Source of the DNA: Candidatus Micropelagos thuwalensis
GTDB lineage: Bacteria; Pseudomonadota; Alphaproteobacteria; RS24
Direction: 5' to 3'
Assembly (NCBI RefSeq): GCF_000469155.1
Contig: NZ_AWXE01000004.1
Coordinates: forward strand, 434,001-498,000
DNA: 64,000 nt
Under the pieces are notes generated by a model. That model did not search any database. It saw only the letters and a program-made list of their open reading frames with translations, and was not told where the DNA came from. The position numbers were made by a program, and so were the translations under genes. Below, piece after piece: positions 5,178-38,656 of the stretch (the stretch's first letter is position 1; each line of letters starts with the position of its first letter).

Positions 5178-5488
5178 GTCTATTTTTCATCCATTCGCTT
5201 CTATGGTCACACGGCTTTCCACATGACTATTTTCCAACCGATAATGCACCCGAGGACGAATATCGTTGTCGGGTGTTGATTTTGCTCCAATGAGCGAAAC
5301 CAGATAATGTTACTTATCTATGTGATTTGACGACAAACTAGGCAGAGAGAGGCAGAAAGTCAAGTAAAGCAGACGCTTACATCTAAACTCACATATCGTA
5401 ATAGATGCAAAACTGGCTATTTTCACCTAATCTGCCTATATAGGCGCTATTAAGCTAATTTTTGTAAATACAATTTGGGACACCCGTT
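5178..5488. other. Divergent intergenic region ffh / dapF
   Basis: 311 bases without a gene between two divergent operons, so promoters for both are expected here. I cannot assign convincing -35/-10 pairs. The only distinct element is a perfect 12-base palindrome GCCTATATAGGC at 5434-5445, about 44 bases before the dapF start, which could be an operator or coincide with a -10 (TATATA). No RNA gene recognised. Confidence 0.5.
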
Positions 5489-36428: not shown

Positions 36429-37502
36429 ATGACATTGACCGTTCTCGGTATTGAAACAAGTTGCGATGAAACAGCGGCTGCAGTTATTCGGCTTGACCCT
36501 GAAAAACCCGATGGCCCCGGTGAAATTCTATCTAATTGCGTGCATAGCCAGATAGATGCTCACGCACCTTATGGTGGGGTTGTCCCCGAAATCGCAGCAC
36601 GCAGACATGTCAGCATTATTGACGGGCTTGTTGAGCAAGCTGTTGCCGACGCCGATATAAACCTTACAGAGCTTGACGGTATCGCCGCCACAGCCGGACC
36701 AGGATTGGTCGGCGGCGTCATGGTAGGGTTAATGACCGGCAAAATGCTTGCCCTGTCTCTTGATAAGCCTTTTATCGGTGTGAATCATCTTGAGGGACAT
36801 GCCCTTACGGTGAGATTATGCGCGCCTTTGGCGTTTCCTTATTTGTTATTGCTGGTATCCGGCGGGCACTGTCAACTCATAGCCGTTAAGGATCACGGAC
36901 TTTACGAAACCTACGGCTCAACTTTAGACGACGCGGCCGGAGAAGCTTTTGATAAAGCCGCAAAATTAATGGGATTAGGTTATCCCGGTGGACCTGCAAT
37001 AGAAAAACTGGCGCAAAAGGGTGATGCAACCGTTTTTGACTTACCGCGCCCACTTACAGGCGACGGCGGGTGTGACTTTTCTTTTTCAGGTCTCAAAACG
37101 GCCTTGCGAGTGCGCGCCACACAAATGCAACCCGTCAGTGAAACTGATTTGGCGAATTTGGCAGCAAGCCTTCAACAAGCTATTACGGATTGTCTGGTCG
37201 AGCGCAGTCACAATGCCATGCGTCGGTTTTCACAAGACCGGTCAGCACAAGCAGGTGATAACGCTCATTTGAAATTTGTTGTCGCTGGCGGCGTAGCAGC
37301 CAATACGCATATTAAGACGGCCCTGGAGCAAATGTGTGACAAAGAAAATTTCTCGTTTCATGTCGCCCCGCCCCACCTTTGCACGGATAATGCTGCCATG
37401 ATTGCATGGGCGGGCGCAGAGAGGCTGCGTATCGGCAAACTTAGTATGCTGAATATGGCAGCACGCCCGCGATGGCCGTTAATGGAACTTAACAGGCTAT
37501 AA
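36429..37502 (+). CDS. tsaD: tRNA N6-adenosine threonylcarbamoyltransferase TsaD
   Basis: Transfers threonylcarbamoyl to A37 of ANN-decoding tRNAs, giving t6A, which is also the substrate of the MtaB encoded at 6394-7677. Metal ligands H120 and H124 (VNHLEGHAL), the PGPGLVGG nucleotide loop (~88-96 region TAGPGLVGG) and the late [11 protein letters not shown] are all present. 357 residues, starting [11 protein letters not shown] at residue 8. Followed by a strong bidirectional terminator 22 bases downstream. Its gpsA partner gene follows after the small-protein locus and a tetR. Confidence 0.97.
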
Positions 37503-37516
37503 TCAATAGGAAATTC

Positions 37517-37600
37517 CCTCAAAAAAAACGCTGACGGGGGAGGGAACCGTCAGCGTTTTAAGCCTTTTCAGGCGATTGCGAGGGGAGGGAATCTCGCAAA
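37517..37600 (-). ncRNA. Tandem anti-Shine-Dalgarno hairpins (CcsR/cuckoo-like sRNA candidate)
   Basis: The minus-strand RNA directly after the small gene's stop forms three elements. Hairpin 1: TTGCGAG/CTCGCAA (37593-37599 with 37576-37582), seven pairs. Mini-hairpin GCCT-GAAA-AGGC (37562-37573). Hairpin 2: thirteen perfect pairs AAAACGCTGACGG/CCGTCAGCGTTTT (37547-37559 with 37525-37537) ending in a run of eight T. The loops of hairpins 1 and 2 share UUCCCUCCC, complementary to GGGAGGG-type ribosome-binding sites. In Rhodobacter, CcsR1-4 RNAs with CCUCCUCCC loops are processed from the mRNA of a small protein gene in the same arrangement. Whether it is processed here is untested. Confidence 0.6.
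37525..37559. terminator. Strong bidirectional terminator after tsaD and the small-protein gene
   Basis: Thirteen-pair perfect stem with a nine-base loop. On the minus strand it runs into eight consecutive T (37521-37528 complement); on the plus strand into four T, 22 bases after the tsaD stop. It is also hairpin 2 of the candidate sRNA. Confidence 0.92.
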
Positions 37601-37726
37601 TTAGATTAAGTAACCACCTGCAGTGTTCTGTGTAAGAACCGCAAAGCCGTATAAAGCAAGCAAAGCAGCAATCAGCGTTGGTACATTGAGAAACTGCTTC
37701 AAAGATTTAAAGAAACGCTTATTCAT
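37601..37726 (-). CDS. 41-residue hydrophobic small protein
   Basis: Unannotated small gene. The product starts MNKRFFKSLKQFLNVP, then has a single hydrophobic segment PTLIAALLALYGFAVLTQ (about 16-33) and ends AGGYLI. The N-terminus is basic, so an inside-positive one-helix membrane protein is expected. The ribosome-binding site AAAGGAT is 7-8 bases before the ATG at 37726 (a second ATG abuts at 37729). It is flanked upstream by a possible heat-shock-type promoter and downstream by the tandem anti-SD hairpins. It is not a DUF1127 protein, the usual partner of such RNAs. I do not recognise a family. Confidence 0.65.
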   Translation of the reverse strand: MNKRFFKSLKQFLNVPTLIAALLALYGFAVLTQNTAGGYLI

Positions 37727-37769
37727 CATTATATCCTTTCAAAGCAATCTGTGCTCTCGACACTTATGA

Positions 37770-37798
37770 ATATAGGGTATCTGGAAATAAAAAACAAT
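37770..37798 (-). promoter_or_regulatory. Candidate RpoH-type promoter for the small-protein/sRNA unit
   Basis: Minus-strand ATTG (37795-37798), 17 bases, then CCCTATAT (37770-37777). The -10 closely resembles the sigma-32 CCCCATnT form and the -35 retains TTG. It lies 41-44 bases before the small gene's ATG within otherwise very AT-rich DNA (37780-37937), where a C-rich -10 stands out. TATATT overlaps, so a sigma70 reading is possible. Confidence 0.4.
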
Positions 37799-37937
37799 AA
37801 ATATTTTGATTTTTATTCATTATTTACCAAAAAAGATGATTATATTTACAACTTATTGATTCTAATATATTATTTAAACAAAAGATTTAATATTTAGTTA
37901 AATTTATCATAAAAAATTGGATATTATGACAAATATA

Positions 37938-38573
37938 TTAAAGGGAAAGAGTGTTTGGTAGGGTTACTTCTGTCTCTAAATGGTCGTTGTTTACCAATCC
38001 TGAGAAGAAGAGTTTCAACATTTCCGACAACTCTACCTCAAGATCTTGAAGTGTTTGGTGCGTGAATAGCTGCGGGTAGTGATATTTCATGGTCGCGGCT
38101 TGTAAAGTAGCAGCGGTTCTGGAGATATCATGAACGACAAATTCGCCGGTTTTACGGCCATAATCCAGAACGATAGCTATGACACGGCGCTCACGGCGAA
38201 GACTTTCAAGTAAAAAACGAGGCCTTTGTGAGGAAACAATTTGAGCCAACTCAACTGCTTTTGGCTTGTTTTCAAGTTTATGAAAGCTCTCTCTCAAGCC
38301 TGAGAACATTACTTCCTCAAGCCTCTCCTGAGCTGAACGAACAGGACAGTCAATAAGCGGACGAAGCCGATCAACAGTCATAATTGACTCTTCGCGCGCA
38401 ATCTCAATAGCTATATCCAGTTTTCCCTTAAAATAACGATAAAGATTGCCTGGAGACATATTGCAGTCTGCAGCTACTTCAGCCATTGTGGTCTTAGGAT
38501 AACCGTAGTGAAGAAAACGTTCTTTAGCCGCCAGAATAATCTGTGCTCTTGTGTTTAAGTCCAAGTCACTCAT
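37938..38573 (-). CDS. TetR-family transcriptional regulator
   Basis: DNA-binding repressor-type protein of 211 residues. The TetR helix-turn-helix is at ~10-55 (AAKERFLHYGYPKTTMAEVAADCNMSPGNLYRYFKGK, split around the recognition helix SPGNLYRYF). The C-terminal ligand domain has no recognisable specificity. Divergent from gpsA with an 83-base gap and upstream of the small-protein locus on the same strand; either could be a target. Ends at 37938 without an evident terminator. Confidence 0.9.
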   Translation of the reverse strand: MSDLDLNTRAQIILAAKERFLHYGYPKTTMAEVAADCNMSPGNLYRYFKGKLDIAIEIAREESIMTVDRLRPLIDCPVRSAQERLEEVMFSGLRESFHKLENKPKAVELAQIVSSQRPRFLLESLRRERRVIAIVLDYGRKTGEFVVHDISRTAATLQAATMKYHYPQLFTHQTLQDLEVELSEMLKLFFSGLVNNDHLETEVTLPNTLSL

Positions 38574-38656
38574 CAGATATTTTTAAGTGCAAAATAATGA
38601 ATAATCAATAAATTATTTACCAACACATTTTTAGTAAACGACTGATAGAGAACAAA

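Follow-up and report, generated by a model that had tools for sequence, protein, structure and literature searches.

A small gene followed directly by hairpins that share a C-rich loop, found in a 64,000-nucleotide stretch of an alphaproteobacterial genome (hereafter the window), raises the question of whether protein and hairpins form a functional unit and, if so, whether that unit belongs to a known group of regulatory RNAs. The earlier note on this DNA had proposed a distant, RpoH-driven member of the CcsR/cuckoo-type stress RNAs. The window comes from a member of the marine PS1 clade (Alphaproteobacteria) close to IMCC14465, and the locus contains the following features, in window coordinates:

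37517-37798, minus strand: the unit as a whole, by direct reading of the letters
38598-38619: tetR-side dyad TAAATAATTTATTGATTATTCA, located before the gene and recognised by footprint; predicted TetR operator, containing the likely tetR -35 (TTGATT)
37938-38573, minus strand: tetR, a TetR/AcrR-family regulator (Pfam TetR_N and TetR_C_27), syntenic and adjoining the unit
37798-37819: unit-side dyad TGAATAAAAATCAAAATATTTA; predicted TetR operator, abutting the unit -35; overlooked in the earlier note
37770-37797, minus strand: promoter core ATTGTT-N17-CTATAT, equally N16-CCTATAT; alphaproteobacterial sigma-70-like
37601-37726, minus strand: ORF of 41 codons for a putative single-helix membrane microprotein, with the core LALYGxxxxTxxxxG order-wide
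37576-37599, minus strand: hairpin 1, TTGCGAG-ATTCCCTCCC-CTCGCAA, 7 pairs; loop AUUCCCUCCC (37583-37592), anti-Shine-Dalgarno-like
37562-37573, minus strand: mini-hairpin GCCU-GAAA-AGGC, 4 pairs, between hairpins 1 and 2; overlooked in the earlier note
37521-37559, minus strand: hairpin 2, an intrinsic terminator with loop UUCCCUCCC (37538-37546) and an eight-U tail
36429-37502, plus strand: tsaD, convergent with the unit, whose U tract ends 19 bp from the tsaD stop

Along the minus strand from 37829 to 37520, the order is dyad, TTG, N19, CTATAT, leader, GAAAGGATATAATG-ATG, ORF, hairpin 1, mini-hairpin, and hairpin 2 with its U tract. TTG (37797-37795) and CTATAT (37775-37770) are separated by 19 nt, and the distance from the same TTG to CCCTATAT (37777-37770) is the 17 nt given previously. 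Transcription is predicted to start at about 37763, and the leader is ~37 nt long. Direct reading bears out the rest of the original description as well: the ORF (MNKRFFKSLKQFLNVPTLIAALLALYGFAVLTQNTAGGYLI) is preceded by GAAAGGATATA; the two hairpins carry TTCCCTCCC in both loops (37591-37583 and 37546-37538); and the terminator, AAAACGCTGACGG-TTCCCTCCC-CCGTCAGCGTTTT (37559-37525), has 13 pairs and eight T at 37528-37521. A second in-frame ATG is present one codon upstream of the ORF start, at 37729.

Conservation was assessed in 28 genomes of the order, representing six genera of one family, with g1 denoting the genus of the window. Relatives recovered with a profile of the ORF are IMCC14465 and metagenome-assembled genomes (MAGs) labelled Rhodobiaceae or PS1 clade. 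A homologue of the ORF is present in 23 of the 28 genomes, and in 14 of the 15 whose completeness is at least 90% and contamination at most 5%. The single exception among these better genomes (G018) retains the dyad and promoter, and its contig ends within the 5′ leader of the unit, before the ORF. Of the other genomes without a homologue, one (G005) has a contig that ends inside tetR, and the remaining three are MAGs of 69-79% completeness. The unit occupies a constant position between tetR and tsaD in the 23 genomes, and the gene order gpsA-tetR-unit-tsaD-hemC is preserved wherever the loci are long enough. No true homologue of the ORF was found outside the order in a class-wide search of a 385-genome sample. 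Two weak matches from outside were discarded, as they lie within long unrelated proteins and have no C-rich hairpins downstream.

The ORF is a genuine coding gene under purifying selection, in agreement with the original reading of it as real. Its pN/pS ratio is 0.10 in g1, 0.20 in g3, 0.36 in g6 and 0.45 in g4, while the other two frames give values above 1. Across the order the product measures 40-42 residues, and M, A25, L26, Y27, G28, T33 and G38 are invariant among the homologues. Searches with the ORF against Pfam, NCBIfam and PHROGs gave no significant match, and a profile search of PDB chains returned one non-significant, unrelated match and no similarity to chains of AcrZ, the small RND-pump partner of E. 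coli that is itself a single-helix inner-membrane microprotein. The hydropathy profile contains one 19-residue segment near +2 behind a basic N-terminus, and an AlphaFold model (mean pLDDT 73, pTM 0.37) consists of a short N-terminal helix and a helix spanning residues 16-41. We infer a single-helix membrane microprotein, as had been suggested. The idea that it is DUF1127 in disguise was rejected, because a comparison of profiles with a DUF1127 protein gave no match; DUF1127 itself was not detected in any of the 28 genomes.

Downstream of this gene, C-rich hairpins begin directly 3′ of the stop codon at all 23 loci, and at each of them the hairpins present the same loop on different stems in tandem, a feature of the CcsR/CcaF1 arrangement. 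The loops centre on CCUCCC, with some reduced to CUCCC or CCUCC, and the stems differ both among the hairpins of an array and among genera. The number of hairpins also varies: the claim that there are only two describes g1, which has two plus the mini-hairpin, whereas other genera have up to four. The g1 mini-hairpin sits where other genera have a GGCC-CCUCC-GGCC hairpin, which suggests a degenerate remnant. In four g4 genomes the third hairpin has lost the C-rich loop, and the g1 mini-hairpin has probably lost its loop likewise.

The pattern of substitutions in the terminator hairpin is that of a maintained stem. Among its 10 distinct sequences, 100% of cells are paired, double changes occur at 5 of 10 pairs and no pair is broken; the covariation score is 0.50, whereas shuffled versions give 0.22 (sd 0.04), and shifting the pairing partner abolishes it. 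The full set of 23 loci agrees with this pattern, and the terminator loops always contain CCTCCC. The second hairpin of g3, g4 and g6 shows the same compensatory behavior, exemplified by GTAATCATAA/TTATGATTAC versus GCAACCATAA/TTATGGTTGC. Thus, comparison of relatives, which the earlier note had proposed as a check, reveals loops that stay fixed across the order while the stems change with compensation.

These data bear on the simplest account of the locus, namely a small membrane-protein gene of the usual kind that ends in a strong terminator, with loops that are incidental and no trans-acting sRNA. The last hairpin is indeed a perfect intrinsic terminator, but two to four same-loop hairpins on different stems, found order-wide and with compensatory stem changes, are difficult to accommodate in such an account, as is the chance expectation of ~0.02 per 64 kb even without conservation. 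We therefore regard the plain-terminator reading as very improbable, as the earlier note had also argued.

Further features were noted in two genera. In g6 (L018, L020), the UAA stop codon of the ORF forms part of the first stem, so that a terminating ribosome would disturb that hairpin, and translation termination could control it. Genus g4 has, at L043, L047, L054, L055, L056, L059 and L060, a second, putative stand-alone RNA, in which a terminator is accompanied by one hairpin or two with CUCCUCCC-type loops; it is divergent from a gene whose product resembles a DUF3604 protein. In addition, two g4 genomes (L048 1501-1612 and L049 692-808) have terminators with CUCCUCCC loops directly after a TonB-dependent-receptor-like gene, which may represent further 3′-UTR anti-Shine-Dalgarno RNAs.

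The chance estimate derives from order-2 Markov versions of the window, in which pairs of CCTCC hairpins no more than 120 nt apart are expected 0.017 times per 64 kb. The sequence TTCCCTCCC occurs eight times in the 1.96-Mb genome, two of these being in the loops of the unit, 45 nt apart. The other sites were considered as further arrays and rejected, since they are not hairpin arrays; two of them lie opposite perfect GGGAGGGAA Shine-Dalgarno sequences, to which they are complementary. The low Markov expectation, the paired TTCCCTCCC sites and the conservation across the order establish that the unit is more than a chance assembly. A generic scan for sigma-70 promoters and terminators had missed it, owing to the consensus and loop-length limits of the scan.

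Upstream of the ORF, the region can be aligned across the order only in one block, consisting of TGAATA-N10-TATTYA, then ATTGTTTTTT, then CTATAT, with a spacing that is fixed apart from one single-base exception. The alphaproteobacterial sigma-70 pattern is CTTGAC-N17-CTATAT and that of RpoH1 is CTTGAA-N16-CCTATAT (PMC8844928, PMC4843759), and the unit promoter, ATTGTT-N16-C-CTATAT, meets both. In genus g4 the sequence is GCTATAT, which still agrees with sigma-70 but no longer with the RpoH CCTATAT. Judged by these motifs, the promoter would fit alphaproteobacterial sigma-70 at least as well as RpoH, and so the proposed RpoH control is unsupported, although the g1 sequence still allows it. Genome-wide, TTG-N16-18-CCTATAT has 11 sites, about half of them inside genes, and is uninformative as a test for RpoH; the intergenic sites precede the unit, an hflK-like gene (named by eye from its sequence) and a few others.

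The strongest promoter feature is instead the 22-bp dyad TGAATA-N10-TATTYA, which abuts the unit -35 and recurs over the -35 of the adjacent tetR. On the unit side it is present at each of the 22 loci whose sequence covers the region, with 11-12 of the 12 half-site bases. On the tetR side it is found in 19 of 19 genomes compared, where it reads close to TGAATAWTTTRTTGATTRTTCA between flanks that have fully diverged on both sides, and it is by this comparison a phylogenetic footprint. The TTGATT within it is spaced from the start codon as would suit a -35 element if the tetR mRNA were leaderless, a placement that suggests autorepression of tetR. Each genome has 0-5 exact TGAATA-N10-TATTYA sites when strands are counted, and in the complete genome G008 they occur only at tetR and the unit. 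A dyad shared by tetR and a regulated gene, and rare elsewhere, is the feature expected of a TetR-autoregulated operator system. Judged from the shared motif, binding of the dyad by the TetR protein is highly probable. Since the dyad abuts the unit -35 and does not overlap it, TetR may activate the unit rather than repress it.

A third site exists in the window genome, where TRAATA-N10-TATTYA has one further occurrence (G000:C1:539741-539762; L141, L144), preceding an operon for a membrane-fusion/AcrB-type RND pump. This site is kept in five g1 genomes, with 10-11 of the 12 half-site bases. In other genera, the sequences preceding the RND homologues yielded nothing comparable, and the link to efflux is therefore limited to g1. 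The TetR protein has weak similarity to drug- and fatty-acid-responsive TetR proteins.

How, then, does the unit relate to known systems? The classical CIN1 layout is CcaF1-CcsR1-4 (PMC10253847), and the CcsR1-4 RNAs arise from the DUF1127 transcript through RNase E (PMC10253847, PMC8307010). The unit resembles this CcsR1-4/CcaF1 locus (CIN1, cuckoo RNA) of Rhodobacter sphaeroides in having a small ORF followed by tandem C-rich anti-Shine-Dalgarno hairpins on unrelated stems, in an array that ends with a terminator hairpin and probably derives from one precursor transcript. It differs in its protein, a hydrophobic single helix rather than a DUF1127 partner; in its loop, UUCCCUCCC rather than CCUCCUCCC; and in the TetR-type operator at its promoter, the two to four hairpins and the neighborhood. 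The likeness of layout, put forward originally, holds in a side-by-side comparison with a genome from another family of the class (G048), in which a DUF1127 gene precedes a row of CUCCUCCUCCC loops. That locus (L062/L039/L058) has about eight C-rich loops after the DUF1127 gene, most of them CUCCUCCUCCC, as compared with four in R. sphaeroides.

Similar comparisons can be drawn with the ar14 RNAs, which carry CCUCCUCCC in each hairpin loop where the unit has UUCCCUCCC, with the core CCUCCC common to both. The Rfam ar14 covariance model (RF02344) scores 31.9 bits in the window against a gathering cut-off of 58.8, and across the order its best score is 46.0 bits, in g6, with none of the genomes over the cut-off. 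Elsewhere in the window, an ffh sRNA (Rfam RF01793) at 5239-5290 lies above its cut-off. The ar14 RNA NfeR1 of Sinorhizobium meliloti, like the unit, has several hairpins, each with an anti-Shine-Dalgarno loop and divergent stems, as well as a CTATAT -10 promoter and a conserved upstream element. NfeR1, whose CCUCCUCCC loops provide redundant anti-Shine-Dalgarno motifs, pairs with ntrB at the start of translation and thereby silences it (PMC10746234). It is a trans-sRNA under LsrB and NtrC for which that paper mentions no linked protein gene, whereas the unit has a linked ORF. AbcR1 and AbcR2 also share anti-Shine-Dalgarno motifs with the unit and use them to silence transport and metabolic mRNAs; they have two distinct motifs and are regulated by LsrB and RpoH1. 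To our knowledge, the AbcR RNAs have neither a linked microprotein gene nor identical loops that recur.

A distant but true member of the CcsR/cuckoo (CIN1) group, transcribed through RpoH during heat or oxidative stress, would account for the architecture, which equals that of the DUF1127-CcsR-type locus of G048, for the sub-threshold ar14 matches at the locus (up to 46 bits in g6), and for CCTATAT at N16, which fits RpoH1 too. The failure to detect DUF1127 in any genome of the order, the ar14 scores below cut-off throughout, the GCTATAT of g4 and a tetR-shared dyad that points to another regulator make such membership unlikely, and neither the RpoH control nor the CcsR/cuckoo membership put forward in the earlier note is supported. 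On present evidence, the unit works like the CcsR/cuckoo/ar14 RNAs but falls outside them by its protein partner, its ar14 score and its loop.

We consider it likely that the locus specifies a TetR-controlled transcript that gives rise to both a membrane microprotein and anti-Shine-Dalgarno sRNAs. A sigma-70-type promoter would drive one transcript containing the ORF for the 40-42-residue inner-membrane protein and the two to four hairpins, given that there is no room for another promoter and only a single terminator. By analogy with CcsR1-4, processing may convert the 3′ part into one or more short stable sRNAs. The C-rich loops (YCCUCCC or close to it) would then pair with Shine-Dalgarno sequences and block the translation of several mRNAs. 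Computed pairing energies are about -9 kcal/mol with GGAGG and about -19 kcal/mol with GGGAGGGAA; because the loop is UUCCCUCCC rather than the CCUCCUCCC of known anti-Shine-Dalgarno sRNAs, pairing with GGAGG-type sequences would amount to ~5 bp unless the Shine-Dalgarno sequence is GGGAGGGAA-like. In the window genome, GGGAGGGAA, the exact complement of the loop, serves as Shine-Dalgarno sequence for two genes, one encoding an SSF-type symporter and the other short with a GTG start (G000:C1:249577, L031; G000:C4:29732, L035). Both are no more than candidate targets, because Shine-Dalgarno positions can be expected to contain purine-rich words. Hfq is encoded in 22 of the 28 genomes of the order.

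It could be that the loops serve instead as sites for an RNA-binding protein, in 3′-end protection or protein titration, rather than as antisense seeds. A loop kept in repeated hairpins with unrelated stems would suit a protein too, and the microprotein could target its own RNA in the manner of CcaF1; this seems improbable for a hydrophobic helix that is not a basic RNA binder, and for loops that are complementary to Shine-Dalgarno sequences and near those of proven anti-Shine-Dalgarno sRNAs.

Under the TetR-controlled arrangement, the TetR-family protein would bind the dyad at its own promoter and at that of the unit, and a ligand, probably membrane-active, would release it, such that protein and sRNAs are made together. 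The microprotein is alike to AcrZ in being a single helix and has no sequence match to it, and co-regulation with an RND pump is possible in g1 only; given this g1 link, an AcrZ-like role is worth testing. Conceivably, a TetR sensor of membrane-active compounds could thus command, through one transcript, an AcrZ-like microprotein that modulates RND export and anti-Shine-Dalgarno sRNAs that shut down the synthesis of uptake proteins, raising export and lowering import, in a system evolved independently of the DUF1127/CcsR unit or by protein swap. We regard this extended scheme as speculative and doubtful.

As far as the present searches reach, this is a real, order-wide protein-sRNA unit that had been previously undescribed. 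A small protein gene with a tandem anti-Shine-Dalgarno sRNA array is already known, with DUF1127 as the partner; what is new is that the same RNA architecture is joined to a predicted TetR operator and to a membrane microprotein unrelated to DUF1127, in an order where DUF1127 was not detected. That the same architecture occurs with a different protein and a different switch makes the coupling of protein and sRNA look modular or convergent, and the unit offers a natural comparison when asking why such coupling exists. With a predicted dedicated regulator and a near-unique operator, it is testable in the cultured strain IMCC14465, and for a streamlined marine order that has received little study it would be a candidate regulatory sRNA system.
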